Of a stretch of DNA of 9,673 nt, positions 1 through 8,559 are shown piece after piece (position 1 is the first letter of the stretch; each line of letters opens with the position of its first letter). Both the position numbers and the translations under genes were made by a program. Origin of the DNA: Pseudomonadota bacterium (GTDB lineage Bacteria; Pseudomonadota; Alphaproteobacteria; Rhizobiales; Xanthobacteraceae); NCBI GenBank assembly GCA_023390695.1, contig JAEWCJ010000427.1, positions 1 through 9,673 of the forward strand, read 5' to 3'. The notes under the pieces were generated by a model. That model saw only the letters and a list, made by a program, of their open reading frames with translations, had not been told where the DNA came from and did not search any database.

Positions 1-429
1 CCATTCCGGCAGGCCGAGAACGGTGGAGGTGCCGCCGATAGCTGCCACGACGTCGGCACCGCCGAGCGCAAGAATGAGCCCGGCGTCGACCGCGATCCCG
101 TCGGCGATGACGCGGGCGATCCTCTGCAGCGCGGCCGGGAGAAACTGGACGATGACGTCAAGCCGCATCGCCAGCGGACCGGCGATCGCGACGGGCGCCC
201 CGACCGCGACCAGCAGGACATTGAGCCAGATGGCGAGTTCCTCCGACCAGATCAGCCCGCTGCCGAACACATAACGCAGCGTCACCGACGTCATCACCAG
301 AACGAACAGGACCGCGAGGATCAGCGCGCCAAGCCATTGCAGTGCGGCCGACAGACGGTCGAGCATGGACGCAAGAACGCGGCGGCGGCCATCGCGCACT
401 GGAATGTTGCTGGTGTCCATGGCGGCCAT
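1..429 (-). CDS. dctQ: TRAP transporter small permease subunit (DctQ family), C-terminus cut by the window edge
   Basis: This is the small four-helix integral membrane subunit of a tripartite ATP-independent periplasmic (TRAP) transporter. It works with a large DctM permease and a periplasmic DctP receptor to import organic acids. The visible 143 residues have a basic N-terminus, a hydrophobic helix at about 32-52, and the family hallmark around 52-68 (RYVFGSGLIWSEELAIW), followed by a second helix at about 66-84. The segment MRLDVIVQFLP at 88-98 matches the usual loop before helix three. The visible end GLPEW at 139-143 matches the start of the last helix, so only some 20-40 residues should be missing. 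The start is ATG at 429 or ATG at 420; neither has a good ribosome binding site. The start lies 12 bases after the NIPSNAP stop, so translation is probably coupled. A dctM gene is expected just beyond the left edge. The substrate cannot be read from this subunit. Confidence 0.88.
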   Translation of the reverse strand, partial: MAAMDTSNIPVRDGRRRVLASMLDRLSAALQWLGALILAVLFVLVMTSVTLRYVFGSGLIWSEELAIWLNVLLVAVGAPVAIAGPLAMRLDVIVQFLPAALQRIARVIADGIAVDAGLILALGGADVVAAIGGTSTVLGLPEW

Positions 430-861: not shown

Positions 862-1713
862 TCAGCCTGTTTCATCCAGCGAATGTCGCACGCACTGGGC
901 CAGATACAGGAATACGGTCGCCGCAAAGTCGTTCAGCGCGGCCGATAGCGGCGGGCAGACGGCAAGAAGTTCGTCGCCGTCTCCCGTCCGGGCGACGAAT
1001 CCGAGCCGTTCGGCGTCGCGCAGCACATTCAAGACGTGCGGACGCGATATGCTGAAGCGGCGCGACAATGCCGACACCGAGAGTGTGAAGGGCTGCGGTA
1101 TCGGTGCTTGCGGTTCCGACGCGAGAAACAGGCTGAACAGGATCATCATGCCGGCGTTGCGCTCGGCCAGCGGGTAAAGCGCTGGCGAGGAATCAAGAAA
1201 GCGGAAGCCGGCGCGGAACGATGCGCCGAAGCGGCGCGCCAGGGCGGAAAGAAAGTCCTCGCGATAAAGATTGGCGAGGCCGGATTTGCCTTCCGGCATC
1301 AACAATGACATGGCGCGGAAATGACAGGCGAGGCGCTCCCGCTGGGAATTGAGCATCAGTTCGGTCGGCACGAGCGGACGCATGCGCCGGTCGCTGCCGT
1401 GCGGTCCCGGCACCAGATAGCCGGCGTAGCGCATGAGAAGAAGCATGGCGGTCGCGCGGCCGGCGCTGCAAAGCCCGGTCTCGGTGCAAAGAGCTTTCAT
1501 CCGCGCGGCGGACAGGCTTGGTTGTCCATCGTCGGAGGAAAAATGCAGGTAGATTGCCAGCATGCCGAAAATAGCCCGGCCGCGGTCGTTCATCACCTGA
1601 TTGAGCACGCGGTTGCCTTGGTACACGGCGACGATCCCGTGCATCATCGTGTGCACGGCTTCGGCAAATCGGGGATGCGCCTGCAGCACTGCGACGTCAT
1701 GCGCAGACGGCAT
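862..1713 (-). CDS. Putative transcriptional regulator with two winged-helix domains, no named family
   Basis: This protein of about 283 residues has two helix-turn-helix-like regions and no recognisable effector or catalytic domain. Numbered from ATG 1713, the first is at about 45-119, with RGRAIFGMLAIYLHF, a recognition-like stretch around TETGLCSAGRATAMLLLM, and a basic wing near SDRRMRPLVPT. The second is at about 209-245, where SVSALSRRFSISRPHVLNVL followed by RDAERLGFVAR is a classic MarR/Crp-like helix-turn-helix and wing. The linker between them is helical. ATG 1713 is chosen because GGTGA sits seven bases upstream. An in-frame ATG at 1794 would add 27 Ser/Pro/Gly-rich residues with only a weak GAG upstream. 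The gene is transcribed away from the CoA ligase pair and towards NIPSNAP and dctQ, so it probably controls one or both sides. I recognise the architecture but cannot assign a family name. Confidence 0.72.
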   Translation of the reverse strand: MPSAHDVAVLQAHPRFAEAVHTMMHGIVAVYQGNRVLNQVMNDRGRAIFGMLAIYLHFSSDDGQPSLSAARMKALCTETGLCSAGRATAMLLLMRYAGYLVPGPHGSDRRMRPLVPTELMLNSQRERLACHFRAMSLLMPEGKSGLANLYREDFLSALARRFGASFRAGFRFLDSSPALYPLAERNAGMMILFSLFLASEPQAPIPQPFTLSVSALSRRFSISRPHVLNVLRDAERLGFVARTGDGDELLAVCPPLSAALNDFAATVFLYLAQCVRHSLDETG

Positions 1714-1720
1714 CGTCTCG

Positions 1721-1725
1721 TCACC
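1721..1725 (-). promoter_or_regulatory. Ribosome binding site that decides the regulator start
   Basis: Read on the minus strand, GGTGA is followed by seven bases and then ATG at 1713. This matches the anti-Shine-Dalgarno sequence better than anything upstream of the alternative ATG at 1794. Confidence 0.5.
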
Positions 1726-1920
1726 GGGAGATGACGCAGAACGGGAGGGAGGAGTGCCGCCCTGCGCAGCTTCGGACCGATGCAGAAGATCCATTGCAGA
1801 ACTCGATTCCGGGGCCGACGGGCCGCCGTTTATGCGCTGATTAGCCGTCTCACGGACAACACGGCAAGGTGAAGAGCTACGGGCCGCGGTGGCCGAGTGA
1901 CGCGCCGGCTTTCCCCCATA

Positions 1921-1963: not shown

Positions 1964-1990
1964 TTGTGGGGGCGTAATTTCTGGTATTAT
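1964..1990 (+). promoter_or_regulatory. Possible sigma-70-type promoter for the CoA ligase genes
   Basis: A -35-like TTGTGG (1964-1969) and a -10-like TATTAT (1985-1990, five of six matches to TATAAT) are separated by 15 bases. A 17-base spacing would use the weaker TTATGT at 1987-1992. The -10 region lies inside the inverted repeat at 1980-2000. This is a by-eye assignment and the start point could lie elsewhere. Confidence 0.3.
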
Positions 1991-2000
1991 GTATTCCAGA
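1980..2000. promoter_or_regulatory. 21-bp interrupted inverted repeat, candidate operator
   Basis: The arms TCTGGTAT (1980-1987) and ATTCCAGA (1993-2000) are complementary at seven of eight positions around a five-base centre. Size and form fit a dimeric helix-turn-helix repressor such as a GntR/FadR-type protein. The repeat overlaps the -10-like TATTAT, so binding would be expected to block transcription of the downstream pair. No GntR gene lies in the window; the double winged-helix regulator at 862-1713 is the nearest candidate. Confidence 0.45.
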
Positions 2001-2083: not shown

Positions 2084-3253
2084 ATGGAACTTCATGAGTT
2101 TCAAGCGAAACAGCTACTGTCCCGCTACGCGCTTGGTTGTCCGAGGGGGCAGGCTGCCGCCACCCCGGACGAGGCGGAAACGGTTGCTGCCTCGCTCGGG
2201 TCGTCGGATCTTTTCGTCAAAGCCCAGATCCATGCTGGCAGCCGCTTCAGGGCCGGCGGCGTGCGGCGGGTACGCACGGCGGCCGAGGCGAAGGCTGCGG
2301 CGGCTGAGCTTCTGGGCCAGAAACTGGTCACCCAGCAGACCGGGCCGCGCGGCGAGACCGTGTCGCGGGTGCTGGTCGAAGCGGGCGTGGCTGGCGCGCG
2401 CGAACTCTATCTGGCGATGGTCGTCGACGGCTCGACCGGTGCGCTCATGGCGATGGGCGGCGACGGCGGCACCGAGATCGAGGAGCGGGCCGGGCAAGGG
2501 CTTCCGCCGCTGGAGACATTGTCGCTCGGGACCGGCGGCGAGAGGCAGGCGGGCGAGATCGCGGATTTTTGCCGGCGCATCGGACTGACCGGCCGTGCCG
2601 CGGATAATGGGGCTGGCGTCGTCCGCGCGATACATCGCGCCTTCATCGACCTCGACGCCAGCCTGATCGAAATCAATCCTTTGGTCGTGACCGCCGGCGG
2701 CGATCTGATCCTGGCCGACGCCAAGGTCATCCTCGACGACAATGCCATGTTCCGTCACCCCGATCTTGAGCGGCTGCGCGAGCCGGGCGATGTCGACGAT
2801 GTCGAACTGAAAGCGCAGCGGCATCAGGTCAATTTCGTTCAGCTCAATGGCGATATCGGCGTTGTCGTGAACGGCGCCGGGCTCGGCCTTGCGACGCTCG
2901 ATCTGGTGCGCGCGGCCGGCGGCGTGCCGGCCAATTTCATGGACATCCGCACGACCGCGAAGAGCCTCGACATCGCGCAAGGCATTGGCCTCGTGCTCGA
3001 CAATCCGCGCGCCAGGGTGCTGCTGATCAATGTCTATGGCGGCGGCATGCAGCCCTGCGACACCATCATCGAGGGACTCGGCATTGCCATCAAGCGCAAG
3101 GGCAGGTCGCTGCCGATCGTGCTGCGTCTCACCGGCAATAATGAAGATCTGGCGCGTCTGCGGCTCGTCAATTTCAATCTGAACGCCATCGAATGCAGCG
3201 ACATGTGGCAGGCGGCCACGCGCGCCGTGGCGATCGCTGCGGGGAGGGCATGA
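2084..3253 (+). CDS. ATP-grasp CoA ligase beta subunit, divergent SucC/MtkA-like
   Basis: The 389-residue protein is collinear with succinyl-CoA synthetase beta (SucC) and malate-CoA ligase large subunit (MtkA), both close to 390 residues. It starts with the typical MELHEFQAKQLL. The ATP-grasp domain includes FVKAQIHAGSRFRAGGV (44-60), KLVTQQTGP (80-88), ELYLAMVVD (107-115), LIEINPLVV (194-202) and a DAK segment (212-214). The C-terminal flavodoxin-like domain includes VNGAGL (262-267) and NVYGGGMQPCD (316-326). Several loops are unusual. The strongly conserved GGGA after ANFLDV in SucC and MtkA is RTTA here (289-292), and GGRGKAGG is GSRFRAGG. This points to a paralog with a different acid substrate rather than the citric acid cycle enzyme. 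It would form acyl-CoA from a carboxylate, nucleotide and CoA together with the alpha subunit that follows. The start is set by GGAGGG at 2070-2075. Its stop codon overlaps the alpha-subunit start. Confidence 0.87.
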   Translation: MELHEFQAKQLLSRYALGCPRGQAAATPDEAETVAASLGSSDLFVKAQIHAGSRFRAGGVRRVRTAAEAKAAAAELLGQKLVTQQTGPRGETVSRVLVEAGVAGARELYLAMVVDGSTGALMAMGGDGGTEIEERAGQGLPPLETLSLGTGGERQAGEIADFCRRIGLTGRAADNGAGVVRAIHRAFIDLDASLIEINPLVVTAGGDLILADAKVILDDNAMFRHPDLERLREPGDVDDVELKAQRHQVNFVQLNGDIGVVVNGAGLGLATLDLVRAAGGVPANFMDIRTTAKSLDIAQGIGLVLDNPRARVLLINVYGGGMQPCDTIIEGLGIAIKRKGRSLPIVLRLTGNNEDLARLRLVNFNLNAIECSDMWQAATRAVAIAAGRA

Positions 3254-4137
3254 TGACTGTTCTCGTCGACCAGAATACGAAAGTGCTGTGCCAGGGCATG
3301 ACCGGCTGGGCCGGCACCTATCATACCAATCGCATGATCCAGTACGGCACCAACGTCGTCGCCGGCGTGACGCCCGGCAAGGGCGGCAAGTCCCATATCG
3401 ATGTGCCGGTATTCAACGCCGTGGCGGAGGCGATGGCGGCCACCGGCGCCAATGCCAGTTGCGTTTTCGTGCCGCCCGCCAATGCGGCGGCGGCGATCAT
3501 CGAGAGTATCGAAGCCGGCATGCCGTTCGTCGTCGTCGTCACCGAACGCATTCCGGTTCTCGACATGGTGCGCGTGCGCGAGGCGCTGAAAGGATCGCGC
3601 ACGCGTCTCGTCGGTCCGAACTCGCAAGGCGTGCTGTCGCCCGGAACGTGCCAGATCGGCGTCATGGCGACCGACCGCGCGCGGCGCGGGAGCATCGGTG
3701 TCGTGTCCCGTTCGGCATCGTTGACGAGCGAAGTGGTGGCGCAACTGACCGCCGCCGGTCTTGGCCAGTCGACCACGATCGGGATCGGCGGCGACGCGGT
3801 GCACGGAATGGGAATTGCCGAATGTCTTGAGCTGTTCTTTGCCGACCCGCAGACCGATGCGGTGGTGCTGGTCGGCGAGATCGGCGGCAACGAGGAACAG
3901 GAGGCGGCGCGGTATCTGCGTGAGAATGGAATCAGGAAGCCGGTGATCGCTCTGATTGCCGGCCAATATGCCCCGCCGCAGCGGCGTATGGGTCACGCCG
4001 GCACGTTGACGTTGCTCGGGCGCGGCGATGCCGGCAGCAAGGTCGCAGAGCTGGAAGCGGCCGGCGTCATCATCGCCGCCAGTTCGCATCTTGTCGGTGC
4101 GGCCACACGGGATGCGCTGGCGCGGCGTGCGGCATGA
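3253..4137 (+). CDS. CoA ligase alpha subunit, divergent SucD/MtkB-like
   Basis: This 294-residue protein matches the alpha subunit of succinyl-CoA synthetase and malate-CoA ligase. It has an N-terminal CoA-binding Rossmann domain, with CQGMTGWAGTYH (13-24) and VAGVTPGKGG (36-45), and a C-terminal ligase domain. The phosphorylated histidine is kept at residue 248 in RRMGHAG, near E. coli SucD His246, and GEIGGNEEQEAA (208-219) is the normal partner segment. Departures from the norm are GPNSQG (121-126) where GPNCPG is usual, and SRSASLTSE (152-160) where SRSGTLTYE is usual. Starts at 3250 or 3253 are possible; GGGGAGGG at 3241-3248 fits 3253 better, where TGATG overlaps the beta-subunit stop by one base. 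The two subunits are therefore coupled and probably made in equal amounts. The substrate is not known. Confidence 0.87.
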   Translation: MTVLVDQNTKVLCQGMTGWAGTYHTNRMIQYGTNVVAGVTPGKGGKSHIDVPVFNAVAEAMAATGANASCVFVPPANAAAAIIESIEAGMPFVVVVTERIPVLDMVRVREALKGSRTRLVGPNSQGVLSPGTCQIGVMATDRARRGSIGVVSRSASLTSEVVAQLTAAGLGQSTTIGIGGDAVHGMGIAECLELFFADPQTDAVVLVGEIGGNEEQEAARYLRENGIRKPVIALIAGQYAPPQRRMGHAGTLTLLGRGDAGSKVAELEAAGVIIAASSHLVGAATRDALARRAA

Positions 4138-5816: not shown

Positions 5817-6758
5817 ATGAAGAAGATTTTTCTGGCGGCTGCCGCGGCGGTGACGCTCGCAGCCATGCCGGCGCAGGCGCAAACCAAGGTCACGATCGGC
5901 ATTTCCGGATGGACCGGCTTCGCCCCGCTGACGCTTGCGAAGGAGGCCGGCATCTTCGCGAAAAACGGCGTCGACGTCACCATCAAGAAGATCCCGCAGG
6001 CGAGCCGCCATCTCGCGATCCTCTCCGGCGACATCCAGTGCGCCGCCACGACGGTGGAAACCTGGATCGTCTGGAACGCCAACGGCGTTGCCACCACGCA
6101 ATTGTTCCAGCTCGACAAGTCCTACGGCGCCGACGGCATGGTGGTGCGCAACGACGTGAAGGCGATCAAGGACGTGAAGGGCAAGCCCGTCGCCGCCTCC
6201 GCGCCCGGCACGGCGCCATATTTCACGCTCGCCTGGTTCCTGAAGAAGAACGGCCTGTCGGTGAAGGACGTGAAAGTCGTCAACATGGAGCCCGGTCCGG
6301 CGGCGCAGGCCTTCATCGCCGGCCAGAACGACGTCGCGATGACCTATGAGCCCTATCTGTCGGCGGTGCGCGCCAAGCCCGACGCCGGCAAGATCATCGC
6401 CACCACGCTCGATTATCCGATGGTGATGGACACGTTCGGCTGCACGCCGAAATTCATCGCCGAGAACGAGGCCGCCGTAAAGGCGATGACCAAGAGCTAT
6501 TTCGAAGCGCTGGAGATGATCGAGAAGGATCAGAAGAAAGCCTACGAGATCATGGGCGCCGACGTGAAGCAGTCCGGCGAGCAGTTCGGCAATTCCGCGA
6601 AATATCTGCGCTGGCAGGATCAGGCGGCGAACAAGAAGTTCTTCGCCGGCGAGCATGCGCAATTCTCGAAGGAGGCCGCCGACCTCTTGCTGGAGATCGG
6701 CGTCATCAAGCAGATCCCGGATCTGTCGAAACTCGCCGATCCGCGCTTCGTGCAATAG
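5817..6758 (+). CDS. ABC transporter substrate-binding protein, SsuA/TauA/NMT1 family
   Basis: This is a periplasmic solute receptor of 313 residues for the importer encoded downstream. It has a clear signal peptide: MKK, then an Ala-rich hydrophobic stretch, ending AMPAQA with cleavage likely after residue 21. The mature part opens with KVTIGISGWTGFAPLTLAKEAGIF (24-47), the typical first strand and ligand loop of the family, followed by a DIQCAATTVETW segment (72-83) and KGKPVAASAPGTAPYF (121-136), the second binding loop. NDVAMTYEPYLS and KAYEIMGADV in the C-terminal lobe are also characteristic. The family binds taurine, alkanesulfonates, nitrate or pyrimidine-like compounds, and specificity cannot be read by eye. 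Lying divergent from hutH and upstream of hutF, it may bind histidine, urocanate or another imidazole compound; this is inference. GGAGGGG precedes ATG 5817. Confidence 0.92.
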   Translation: MKKIFLAAAAAVTLAAMPAQAQTKVTIGISGWTGFAPLTLAKEAGIFAKNGVDVTIKKIPQASRHLAILSGDIQCAATTVETWIVWNANGVATTQLFQLDKSYGADGMVVRNDVKAIKDVKGKPVAASAPGTAPYFTLAWFLKKNGLSVKDVKVVNMEPGPAAQAFIAGQNDVAMTYEPYLSAVRAKPDAGKIIATTLDYPMVMDTFGCTPKFIAENEAAVKAMTKSYFEALEMIEKDQKKAYEIMGADVKQSGEQFGNSAKYLRWQDQAANKKFFAGEHAQFSKEAADLLLEIGVIKQIPDLSKLADPRFVQ

Positions 6759-6773
6759 CTTTGCGTTTCACAT

Positions 6774-6887
6774 CGTCATGGCCGGGCGAAAGGCGCGCCG
6801 TCGTCGTGTCTGGAGTCCCGGCCATCCACATCTTGACCCTGGATCGAGCCTGAAGACGTGGATGCCCGGCACCGGCCGGGCATGACG
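6774..6887. repeat. Palindromic intergenic repeat, copy A (inside the ABC operon)
   Basis: The outer arms CGTCATG (6774-6780) and CATGACG (6881-6887) are complementary. The inner arms CATCCACATCTT (6823-6834) and AAGACGTGGATG (6853-6864) match at 11 of 12 positions. ATGGCCGGG (6778-6786) can also pair locally with CCCGGCCAT (6817-6825), and GCCCGG/CCGGGC in the right half can pair too. It is an inverted copy of the element at 8466-8551 with about 25 extra bases in one hairpin loop (6788-6816). No T tract follows either hairpin. It lies between the substrate-binding protein and permease genes and includes a GTG (6858) and an ATG (6882) in frame with the permease. Confidence 0.85.
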
Positions 6888-7682
6888 ATGGAGATGCTAT
6901 TCAAAGCGATGCGCCCCCTCGCACCCATATCGAACACCGCCCGGATCCTTCTGGGCATCTCGTTCTTCGTTCTGTTCGTTGCCGCCTGGTCGGTCGCCAC
7001 CCTGGGCGGCTTTGTCTCCAAGACCTTTCTGGCCGACCCGCTGACCATGCTGGAGGACGGCTGGCTGCTGCTCACCAAATACAATTTTTCGTATGATATC
7101 GGCGTTACGGTATGGCGCGTGGTTGGCGGTTTCGTGTTCGCCGCGCTCGTCGCCGTGCCGCTCGGCATCCTGATGGGCGCCTACAAGCCGATCGAGGCCT
7201 TTCTCGAACCCTTTGTGTCCTTCGCGCGCTATCTGCCGGCCTCGGCCTTCATTCCGCTTTTGATCCTGTGGGCGGGCATCGGCGAAATGCAGAAGCTGCT
7301 CGTCATCTTCATCGGCTCCGTCTTCCAGATCATCCTGATGGTGGCGGTCACCGTCAGTTCCGTGCGCCGCGACCTCGTGGAAGCCGCGCTCACCCTCGGC
7401 GCCAAGGATCAGGGCATTCTCGGCCGGGTGCTGATCCCGTCTTCCGCGCCGGGCATCGCCGAGACCCTGCGGCTGGTGCTCGGCTGGGCCTGGACCTATG
7501 TGATCGTCGCCGAACTGATCGGCTCGTCCTCCGGCATCGGCCATATGATCATCGACAGCCAGGCGTTGCTCGCCACCGGCCAGATGATCTTCGGCATCAT
7601 CGTGATCGGCGTCATCGGCTTAATCTCCGACTACCTGTTCAAGGCGGTGAACCAGCGTCTGTTCCCATGGAGCCTGTCATGA
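6888..7682 (+). CDS. ABC transporter permease, SsuC/TauC family
   Basis: This inner-membrane channel subunit is likely a homodimer that works with the substrate-binding protein upstream and the ATPase downstream. From ATG 6888 it has 264 residues, with hydrophobic segments at about 19-39, 76-98, 116-131, 137-156, 200-217 and 233-251. The cytoplasmic EAA loop that contacts the ATPase is EAALTLGAKDQGILGRVLIP at about 165-184. The start is uncertain: GTG 6858 and ATG 6882 are in frame but lie inside the palindromic repeat, so their N-terminal residues would be repeat-derived. ATG 6888 is the first start outside it; ATG 6894 and 6909 are also possible. None has a good ribosome binding site. Its TGA overlaps the ATPase start by four bases (ATGA), the usual sign of coupled translation. 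Confidence 0.9.
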   Translation: MEMLFKAMRPLAPISNTARILLGISFFVLFVAAWSVATLGGFVSKTFLADPLTMLEDGWLLLTKYNFSYDIGVTVWRVVGGFVFAALVAVPLGILMGAYKPIEAFLEPFVSFARYLPASAFIPLLILWAGIGEMQKLLVIFIGSVFQIILMVAVTVSSVRRDLVEAALTLGAKDQGILGRVLIPSSAPGIAETLRLVLGWAWTYVIVAELIGSSSGIGHMIIDSQALLATGQMIFGIIVIGVIGLISDYLFKAVNQRLFPWSLS

Positions 7683-8461
7683 GCAAGCTCCTGATCCAGG
7701 ATGTCTCGCGTGTCTTCCCGGCGGTGCGGGGCGGCACGCCGACGCGTGCGCTGCAGCCGATCGACCTGACCATCGGCGACAACGACTTCGTCACCATTCT
7801 CGGCCCGTCCGGCTGCGGCAAGTCGACCTTGCTGCGGATGGTGGCCGGTCTCGATACGCCGACCGAGGGCGGCATCCTGCTCGACGGCCTGCCGGTGACG
7901 CGGCCCGGCCCCGAACGCGGCATGGTGTTTCAGTCCTACACGCTGTTTCCATGGCTCACCATTGCGGAGAACGTCGCTTTCGGCCTGCGCGAAAAGGGCG
8001 TGCCCTTGCGCGAGCGCATGGATATCGTCGCTCAGTGGCTGGATCGCGTCGGACTGACCAGTTTCGCCAATCATTATCCGAAACAGCTCTCCGGCGGCAT
8101 GCAGCAGCGCACCGCGATTGCGCGCGCGCTCGCCAACGATCCTGCGATCCTGTTGCTCGACGAGCCTTTCGGCGCGCTCGACAACCAGACCCGCGCCCTG
8201 ATGCAGGAATTGCTGCTCGGCATCTGGGAGCGCGAGCGCAAGACCGTGCTGTTCGTCACTCATGACATCGAGGAGGCGATCTTTCTCGCCTCGCGTGTCG
8301 TGGTGATGTCGGCGCGTCCCGGCCGCATCAAGGCGGATATCCCGATCGATCTCGGCTATCCGCGCCACTACACGGTGAAGACCAGCCCGGAATTCTCCGC
8401 CATCAAGGCGCGGCTGACCGAGGAGATCCGCGCCGAAGCGGTGCTGGCGGCGGGGGTCTAA
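7679..8461 (+). CDS. ABC transporter ATP-binding protein, SsuB/TauB family
   Basis: This is a cytoplasmic ATPase of 260 residues that powers the importer. All motifs are intact: Walker A GPSGCGKST (42-50), Q-loop Gln85 in VFQSYTLFPW, signature LSGGMQQR (137-144), Walker B LLLDEP (158-163) with catalytic Glu162 in DEPFGALD, and His195 in VTHDIEEA. The SARPGRI segment (211-217) and the C-terminal tail are usual for the nitrate/sulfonate/taurine group. The start is ATG 7679, overlapping the permease stop by four bases, with GGAG at 7669-7672 six bases upstream. An in-frame ATG at 7667 would add four residues (MEPV) but is less likely. The gene ends just before the second palindromic repeat. Confidence 0.95.
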   Translation: MSKLLIQDVSRVFPAVRGGTPTRALQPIDLTIGDNDFVTILGPSGCGKSTLLRMVAGLDTPTEGGILLDGLPVTRPGPERGMVFQSYTLFPWLTIAENVAFGLREKGVPLRERMDIVAQWLDRVGLTSFANHYPKQLSGGMQQRTAIARALANDPAILLLDEPFGALDNQTRALMQELLLGIWERERKTVLFVTHDIEEAIFLASRVVVMSARPGRIKADIPIDLGYPRHYTVKTSPEFSAIKARLTEEIRAEAVLAAGV

Positions 8462-8465
8462 CCTT

Positions 8466-8551
8466 CGTCATGCCCGGCCTTGTGCCGGGCATCCACGTCT
8501 TGCTTTCAAGGCACGAAGACGTGGATGGCCGGGACAAGCCCGGCCATGACG
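8466..8551. repeat. Palindromic intergenic repeat, copy B (after the ABC operon)
   Basis: This 86-base element has outer arms CGTCATG/CATGACG and perfect inner arms CATCCACGTCTT (8490-8501) and AAGACGTGGATG (8516-8527). Each half also forms its own hairpin: ATGCCCGGC/GCCGGGCAT around CTTGT (8470-8492) and ATGGCCGGG/CCCGGCCAT around ACAAG (8525-8547). It lies between the ATPase stop and the convergent hutF stop, where such a structure could act as a transcript end or protect the 3' end. It lacks a T tract, so it is not a standard intrinsic terminator. Repeats of this kind are numerous between genes in Bradyrhizobium-like bacteria (general knowledge). Confidence 0.88.
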
Positions 8552-8559
8552 TGGTGCAG

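Follow-up and report, generated by a model that had tools for sequence, protein, structure and literature searches.

A proposed two-subunit oxalate-CoA ligase related to succinyl-CoA synthetase in the Xanthobacteraceae and their relatives

The gene pair considered here occupies positions 2084–4137 of a 9,673-nucleotide stretch of DNA (the window; GenBank assembly GCA_023390695.1, contig JAEWCJ010000427.1) from a bacterium of the alphaproteobacterial family Xanthobacteraceae, and its closest described relatives are the succinyl-CoA synthetase (SCS) SucCD, where CoA is coenzyme A, and the malate-CoA ligase MtkAB. With SucCD (Escherichia coli 1jkj; pig 2fp4 and 5cae) the pair shares its two subunits, domains, gene order and phospho-histidine, the beta subunit matching 1jkj chain B at E 1.5e-81 and the alpha subunit 2fp4 chain A at E 1e-93; it differs in four loops (RTTA, a GGGM insertion, GPNSQG and SRSASLTSE), in forming part of a separate clade, and in the company of its genes. 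MtkAB, which co-occurs with the pair in some genomes, is a case of this fold, likewise in two subunits, serving a different acid; MtkA retains GGGA where the pair has RTTA, and carries AGINR.

Oxalate is a major acid of plants, fungi and soil, and its known bacterial entry, the formyl-CoA:oxalate CoA-transferase Frc, merely swaps CoA between formate and oxalate. Frc and the oxalyl-CoA decarboxylase Oxc belong to the pathway proposed here for the pair and are its neighbours in many relatives; Frc passes on a thioester already made, without ATP, whereas an oxalate ligase would create a new one. Reduction of oxalyl-CoA to glyoxylate costs the thioester, so that assimilation of oxalate depends on a supply of new CoA esters. 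The plant acyl-activating enzyme AAE3 is AMP-forming and single-chain. Its product, according to passages of, for example, PMC7700444 and PMC9301600, is oxalyl-CoA. That product is the one proposed for the pair, which differs in being of the ADP-forming ATP-grasp type, with no AMP-binding adenylate-forming Pfam match in either subunit. PanE2/ApbA2, an acylating glyoxylate dehydrogenase, is the proposed user of the product, a reductase rather than a ligase, and many relatives have a PanE2-like gene next to the pair. Passages of PMC7486775 give the dehydrogenase function during growth on oxalate to ApbA2, the homologue of PanE2 in Cupriavidus necator.

We consider it quite likely that the pair encodes an ADP-forming, two-subunit oxalate-CoA ligase, a substrate and reaction suggested by its clade, its gene neighbourhoods in relatives, its co-occurrence with oxalate genes and a shared palindrome. 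The fold is already known, and oxalate as its acid is probably new. A wider proposal, that a hitherto unnamed family of ATP-dependent oxalate-CoA ligases made of two subunits goes under the annotation succinate-CoA ligase, has a rebuilt pocket (RTTA/GGGM/GPNSQG/SRSASLTSE), lies in a GntR-controlled oxalate regulon marked by TGGYAT-N5-ATRCCA and supplies fresh thioester for an oxalyl-CoA reductase route, appears reasonably likely. No description of a two-subunit ADP-forming oxalate-CoA ligase was found in a full-text literature search, which had most subscription journals outside its reach.

The gene pair and its acid pocket

The pair and its distinguishing parts are as follows.
2084..3253, forward strand: beta subunit, an open reading frame of 389 amino acids with Pfam ATP-grasp_2 and Ligase_CoA; RTTA clade; proposed oxalate-CoA ligase beta subunit
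3250..4137, forward strand: alpha subunit, 295 amino acids from 3250, with Pfam CoA_binding, Ligase_CoA and Succ_CoA_lig; proposed oxalate-CoA ligase alpha subunit
2948..2959, forward strand: RTTA, beta residues 289–292, where SucC and MtkA have GGGA; proposed acid-pocket loop
3038..3064, forward strand: GGGMQPCDT, beta residues 319–327, one residue more than FGG-IVRCD of SucC
3613..3630, forward strand: GPNSQG, alpha residues 121–126; GPNCPG in SucD
3706..3732, forward strand: SRSASLTSE, alpha residues 152–160, at the N-terminus of the alpha power helix; SRSGTLTYE in SucD
3994..3996, forward strand: alpha His248 in GHAG (247–250), the presumed phospho-histidine, aligned with GHAG of solved SucD chains

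The alpha subunit starts at the ATG at 3250 or at that at 3253 (294 amino acids with the latter, from which alpha residues are numbered), and the beta stop codon is overlapped by the alpha start. Pfam matches of both subunits exceed the gathering scores, giving the domain set of ADP-forming, SCS-like two-subunit acyl-CoA ligases. The catalytic residues alpha His248 and beta K46, R54 and E196 are conserved; beta E196, within IEINP, aligns with E197 of the E. coli enzyme, and the glutamate of GEIGG in alpha with that of the pig enzyme, the roles of these residues (phospho-histidine, catalytic glutamates) being taken from passages of PMC10342173. The length, order and coupling of the genes and the alpha His248 reported in a preliminary description of this DNA are thus all present in the sequence.

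That description had also singled out RTTA in place of GGGA, together with GPNSQG and SRSASLTSE; these too are in the sequence, and prove to be linked signatures of one clade, none of the SucCD loops GGGA, GPNCPG and SRSGTLTYE being kept. RTTA is invariant in all 28 aligned homologues and in 25 of 25 members of a more diverse set, and co-varies with GGGM or GGGL in beta and with the changes in alpha: of the 132 beta rows, RTTA occurs in 85, in most of them alongside GGGM, and in 46 rows GGGA or GGSA goes with GGIM or AGINR, the rows having been chosen in part by a pattern that itself contains part of RTTA. Alpha rows split likewise, into those with GPNSQG and SRSA(S/T)LTSE and those with GPNCPG and SRSGTLTYE. 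The GGGM insertion is a further linked change that had been overlooked. Because RTTA is invariant and linked to the others, the loop changes are not due to chance or sequencing error. A fifth change, GSRFRAGG at beta 52–59, had been noted as well; the sequence is as reported and Gly52, Arg54 and Gly59 are invariant in the RTTA family, but as a family trait it holds only in part, positions 55 and 56 varying among members.

The preliminary description had placed the altered loops around the acid pocket, among other sites, and a hand alignment to the sequence of a 4-hydroxybutyrate-CoA ligase (8wzu) agrees. Passages of PMC11494057 relate L131, F146, A164, G355' and S385' of 8wzu to residues within 5 Angstrom of the acyl group in acetyl-CoA synthetase 4YAK, and use the 8wzu loops P128–C130, G163–I165, G310–P312 and V354–D356 to superpose sites, succinate-bound pig SCS included. 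In the hand alignment, L131 corresponds to alpha Gln125, A164 to alpha Ser156, V354-G355-D356 to beta Arg289-Thr290-Thr291 (RTTA spanning V354–A357), and S385 to the GGGM insertion (Gly321/Met322). Since all four linked changes fall on acyl-pocket positions of 8wzu, they are placed on acid-facing loops, and the acid pocket, as read from the alignment, is rebuilt relative to SucCD.

The proposed reaction would be oxalate + ATP + CoA -> oxalyl-CoA + ADP + phosphate. As in SCS, ATP bound by the ATP-grasp domain of beta would phosphorylate alpha His248, from which the phosphate would pass to the acid, CoA then taking up the acyl group. The pocket would be fitted to a small polar dianion by Arg289-Thr290-Thr291 in place of three glycines, by alpha Gln125 and Ser156 in place of the Pro and Thr of SucD, and by the residue added in GGGM. 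Oxalyl-CoA would feed either a PanE2 reductase, giving glyoxylate for Gcl-Hyi-Tsr or a serine/glycine route, or Oxc. An ATP-dependent ligase beside PanE2 fits the need for new thioester, because Frc conserves the thioester and oxalyl-CoA reduction consumes one.

Separation from SucCD and MtkAB

A protein search gave, as the best 120 of 8000 scored candidates, homologues with identities from about 85% down to about 62–68%, and a scan of contigs for the patterns ANFMDIRT and [VI]NV[YF]GGGM, which hold part of the signature, kept 80 loci from 165 relatives. In a quick maximum-likelihood tree of 125 distinct sequences among the 132 beta rows, 82 RTTA rows form one clade (Shimodaira–Hasegawa-like approximate likelihood ratio test support 99, stem 0.81); 34 SucC rows and eight MtkA-like rows fall outside it, the latter as a clade of their own whose label is borne out by the National Center for Biotechnology Information (NCBI) model for two of the eight, and one long branch (L121) lies outside all groups. 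The window's beta subunit groups with those of its closest relative, genome G028, and locus L001. Against NCBIfam models it scores 364.7 bits for a SucC cut-off of 370, 349.8 for the 375.55 of a second SucC model, and 307.4 for the far higher MtkA cut-off of 604. The tree places the pair outside SucC and MtkA and within the RTTA clade, and so supports a CoA ligase of two subunits that is distinct from both SucCD and MtkAB. The probable new acid specificity suggested at the outset, with no acid named, gains support from the separate clade and the changed acid-pocket loops.

A divergent SCS that still acts on succinate, supplying or using succinyl-CoA in oxalate loci, is very unlikely. In its favour, alpha scores 362.8 and 356.8 bits with two SucD models whose cut-offs are 336 and 353.2, and beta lies near the SucC cut-off; the acid-pocket loops, on the other side, are replaced as a linked set, and a separate SucC accompanies the pair almost throughout. 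In each of the 22 genomes first searched, the RTTA copy (325–370 bits) is joined by a SucC-family protein scoring 490 bits or more. Of the 18 holders of the pair in a sample of genomes described below, 17 have a separate SucC-family copy, G106 having the RTTA copy only, and four of the 18 RTTA betas pass the SucC model TIGR01016 (393–409 bits). Both types occur in the window's sister genomes, G028 and the metagenome assembly G001, and in G016 and G018 the SucC-type copies lie about 9–10 kb from the RTTA pair. The paralogy proposed as a check in the preliminary description is therefore found in the relatives.

Oxalate genes and a shared palindrome around the pair in relatives

Neighbouring families were named from one representative each, those of Frc (719 bits), Oxc (1012), Gcl (1176) and the oxalate/formate antiporter (619) exceeding NCBI cut-offs, as do those of Hyi, tartronate semialdehyde reductase and formate dehydrogenase alpha; the PanE2-like representative exceeds that of NF005089, a ketopantoate reductase subfamily. 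Across the 80 pattern-found loci, PanE2-like genes occur in 43, Frc in 34, Oxc in 20 and the antiporter in 14, with at least one of the four in 65. A less biased sample comprised 199 genomes of the order of G028, taken regardless of the RTTA pair, which is present in 18. Frc over cut-off was found in all 18 holders against 41 of 181 others (Fisher 4e-11), Oxc over cut-off in 12 against 27 (5e-6), and a PanE2-like protein at E 1e-90 in 14 against 32 (3e-7), p values that are too small because the sampled genomes are related. Frc, Oxc, the antiporter or a PanE2-like gene lies near the pair in 17 of 18 stretches (4.5–20 kb), compared with one of 17 control loci, one SucC-family stretch being taken from each of 17 of the 18 genomes (none from G106) and, except in G168, around the top-scoring copy. 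Nine of the 17 control stretches adjoin an SGA-like gene and are probably of MtkA type.

These neighbours also bear on the choice of acid. The main competing explanation, itself unlikely, is a formate-CoA ligase making formyl-CoA that Frc then turns to oxalyl-CoA, which would prime the same pathway. Frc is present in 18 of 18 sampled holders, formate dehydrogenase genes stand beside the pair in three of 18 stretches, and the net effect upstream of Frc would nearly equal that of an oxalate ligase; core arrangements, however, consist of the pair and a PanE2-like gene with no local Frc, where a direct oxalate ligase is simpler, and the added Arg and other polar pocket residues would better suit a second carboxylate. 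A ligase that acts on a different small acid of the network, such as malate, malonate, glyoxylate or glycolate, and feeds glyoxylate or C2 metabolism is improbable to a similar degree: genes resembling SGA, GlyA and hydroxypyruvate reductase lie next to the pair in some loci and MtkA is a known switch of acid within the fold, but the RTTA group is separate from MtkA, and Frc, Oxc and the oxalate/formate antiporter recur nearby, preceded by the same palindrome as the pair. A sulfoacetate-CoA ligase was rejected, the neighbourhoods not fitting, and the earlier suggestion of an organic acid imported by the nearby tripartite ATP-independent periplasmic (TRAP) transporter was likewise abandoned: DctQ persists in G028, but the L001 neighbourhood yielded no recognised TRAP gene, and pairs of relatives stand instead beside TctABC-type or oxalate/formate antiporter genes.

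The palindrome lies in the window at the following position.
1982..1998, forward strand: palindrome TGGTATTATGTATTCCA, 85 bp upstream of beta; putative operator site in the oxalate regulon

The window and the loci L127 and L001 share TGGTAT-TATGT-AT(T/G/A)C(C/T)A between the regulator gene and beta, 85–91 bp before beta. With the pattern TGGTAT-N5-ATACCA, at least 11 of the 12 arm bases being required for a site, 110 sites were counted in a set of 82 loci, compared with 0 and 2 in shuffled sequences; in the sampled genomes the palindrome is found in 18 of 18 RTTA stretches (37 sites in 288 kb) and in one of 17 controls (one site in 309 kb, in L164), and 56 of the 80 pattern-found loci have it. 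Sites precede beta, Oxc, antiporter, TctC, GntR, ACD-type ligase and PanE2-like genes. Twelve GntR/oxalate-locus stretches from other genomes include six with a site of at least 11 matches and ten with one of at least 10, L178 and L184 having none; a perfect palindrome stands 87 bp before gntR-oxc-frc in G001, and a 10/12 site in G028. Taken alone, the window's palindrome is modest (0.05 expected at no more than two mismatches; a mean of 0.2 in ten Markov sequences), and its place and conservation weigh more than these chance statistics. To judge from this shared site, control of the pair through the palindrome at 1982–1998 probably lies with the GntR-type protein encoded first in gntR-oxc-frc. 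A GntR protein local to L001 (577–1233) was set aside as the regulator, being only about 31% like the oxalate-locus GntR, whose counterpart heads gntR-oxc-frc elsewhere.

A perfectly spaced 18-bp tandem repeat, TTTCCTTAC(G/A)GCGACATG, lies at 1921–1956; a regulatory role for it was rejected, as it was not found in L127 or L001. Promoter and terminator calling over 1780–2100 gave no sigma-70-like promoter and no terminator.

Several observations, the SucD and TIGR01016 scores above among them, weigh against an oxalate-CoA ligase. Within the 9.7-kb window there is no Frc, Oxc, PanE2-like or antiporter gene, and no PanE2-like gene was found at E 1e-40 in the metagenome assembly G001. The PanE2-like proteins are presumed to be oxalyl-CoA reductases from their family, their gene context and published work on a homologue. 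Fifteen of the 80 pattern-found loci lack all four neighbouring families, some of them short contigs and others full stretches such as L008, and 24 lack the palindrome. Among the controls, L164 also stands beside Frc, Oxc and antiporter genes, and in G168 the top SucC-type copy was skipped for one farther away, because it lies about 2 kb from the RTTA pair; its inclusion would have raised the count to two of 17. Frc occurs in eight of eight genomes of the G028 genus, five of them without the pair, and genome-wide Frc was dropped as proof within that genus. Some loci, for example in Labrys and Phyllobacterium, also carry a SucC-type pair or an ACD-type CoA ligase; the oxalate step could there belong to one of these, and CoA-ligase roles may be shared in the Labrys and Phyllobacterium loci.

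Two features of such loci are recorded in their own right. In L039, L041, L042, L046 and similar loci a fused ACD-type acyl-CoA synthetase (712 amino acids) and a SucC-type pair lie beside the antiporter, with a palindrome before the ACD gene. A thiamine pyrophosphate (TPP) enzyme of 583 amino acids (L042:6673–8424 and relatives) takes the place of Oxc beside Frc in Labrys and Phyllobacterium loci; it reaches the cut-off of none of the 25 NCBIfam models listed, and is possibly another oxalyl-CoA decarboxylase.

The pair in the window's lineage

The other genes that frame the pair in the window are listed here.
1–429, reverse strand: part of a TRAP DctQ gene, left of the pair
442–828: NIPSNAP-family protein, its gene flanked by those of DctQ and the regulator
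862..1794, reverse strand: divergent winged-helix-like regulator with a weak MarR_2 match under the Pfam gathering score; also adjoins the pair in L001 and L127
4154..5695, reverse strand: HutH (histidine ammonia-lyase), transcribed towards alpha; at this spot G028 has the gcl-hyi-tsr-panE2 block

G028 is colinear with the window through TRAP, regulator, beta (85%), alpha (88%), hutH and ATP-binding cassette (ABC) transporter genes, and has, between alpha and hutH, genes for a regulator resembling IclR/BhcR, for Gcl, Hyi and Tsr, and for a PanE2-like protein; Bosea and Afipia loci have the same gene order after alpha. In the window, where alpha ends at 4137 and hutH lies from 4154, the gcl-hyi-tsr-panE2 block is absent, and L001 also lacks it. 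In the tree the window, G028 and L001 form a three-way branching, and the block may have been lost in two lines or gained in G028. Because the adjacent block is missing, the product would in the window's lineage probably go to Oxc; gntR-oxc-frc is present in G001 and likewise in G028. This absence is also what speaks for the pair being, in this lineage, a remnant of a lost block without present use, a highly improbable reading given the open frames, the strong constraint, the palindrome that is kept, and the gntR-oxc-frc retained in G001 and G028. Ratios of nonsynonymous to synonymous change (dN/dS) are 0.07–0.095 for beta (three comparisons) and 0.024–0.038 for alpha (two), values obtained from six of 12 comparisons and with synonymous change near saturation.

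To the right of the pair the window continues with HutH, an ABC transporter and HutF. The transporter, NitT/TauT-like (binding protein, permease, ATPase; 5817–8461), lies between hutH and hutF, also in G028 and L001, and may import histidine, urocanate or a derivative. Palindrome-rich intergenic repeats of the gccgggcatgacgatgg / catgcccggcc type occur at 6775–6895 and 8466–8553, and L127 has a copy at a matching place (19878–19969); the NIPSNAP gene was not seen at the corresponding place in L127.

A dedicated ATP-dependent oxalate ligase, if the proposal is true, would close the gap in the supply of new CoA esters for oxalate assimilation, and the succinate-CoA ligase label on such genes would have to be corrected. 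It would offer an example of an SCS-like fold re-tuned to a two-carbon diacid, and the shared palindrome offers a means of tracing the oxalate regulon in full across Hyphomicrobiales.

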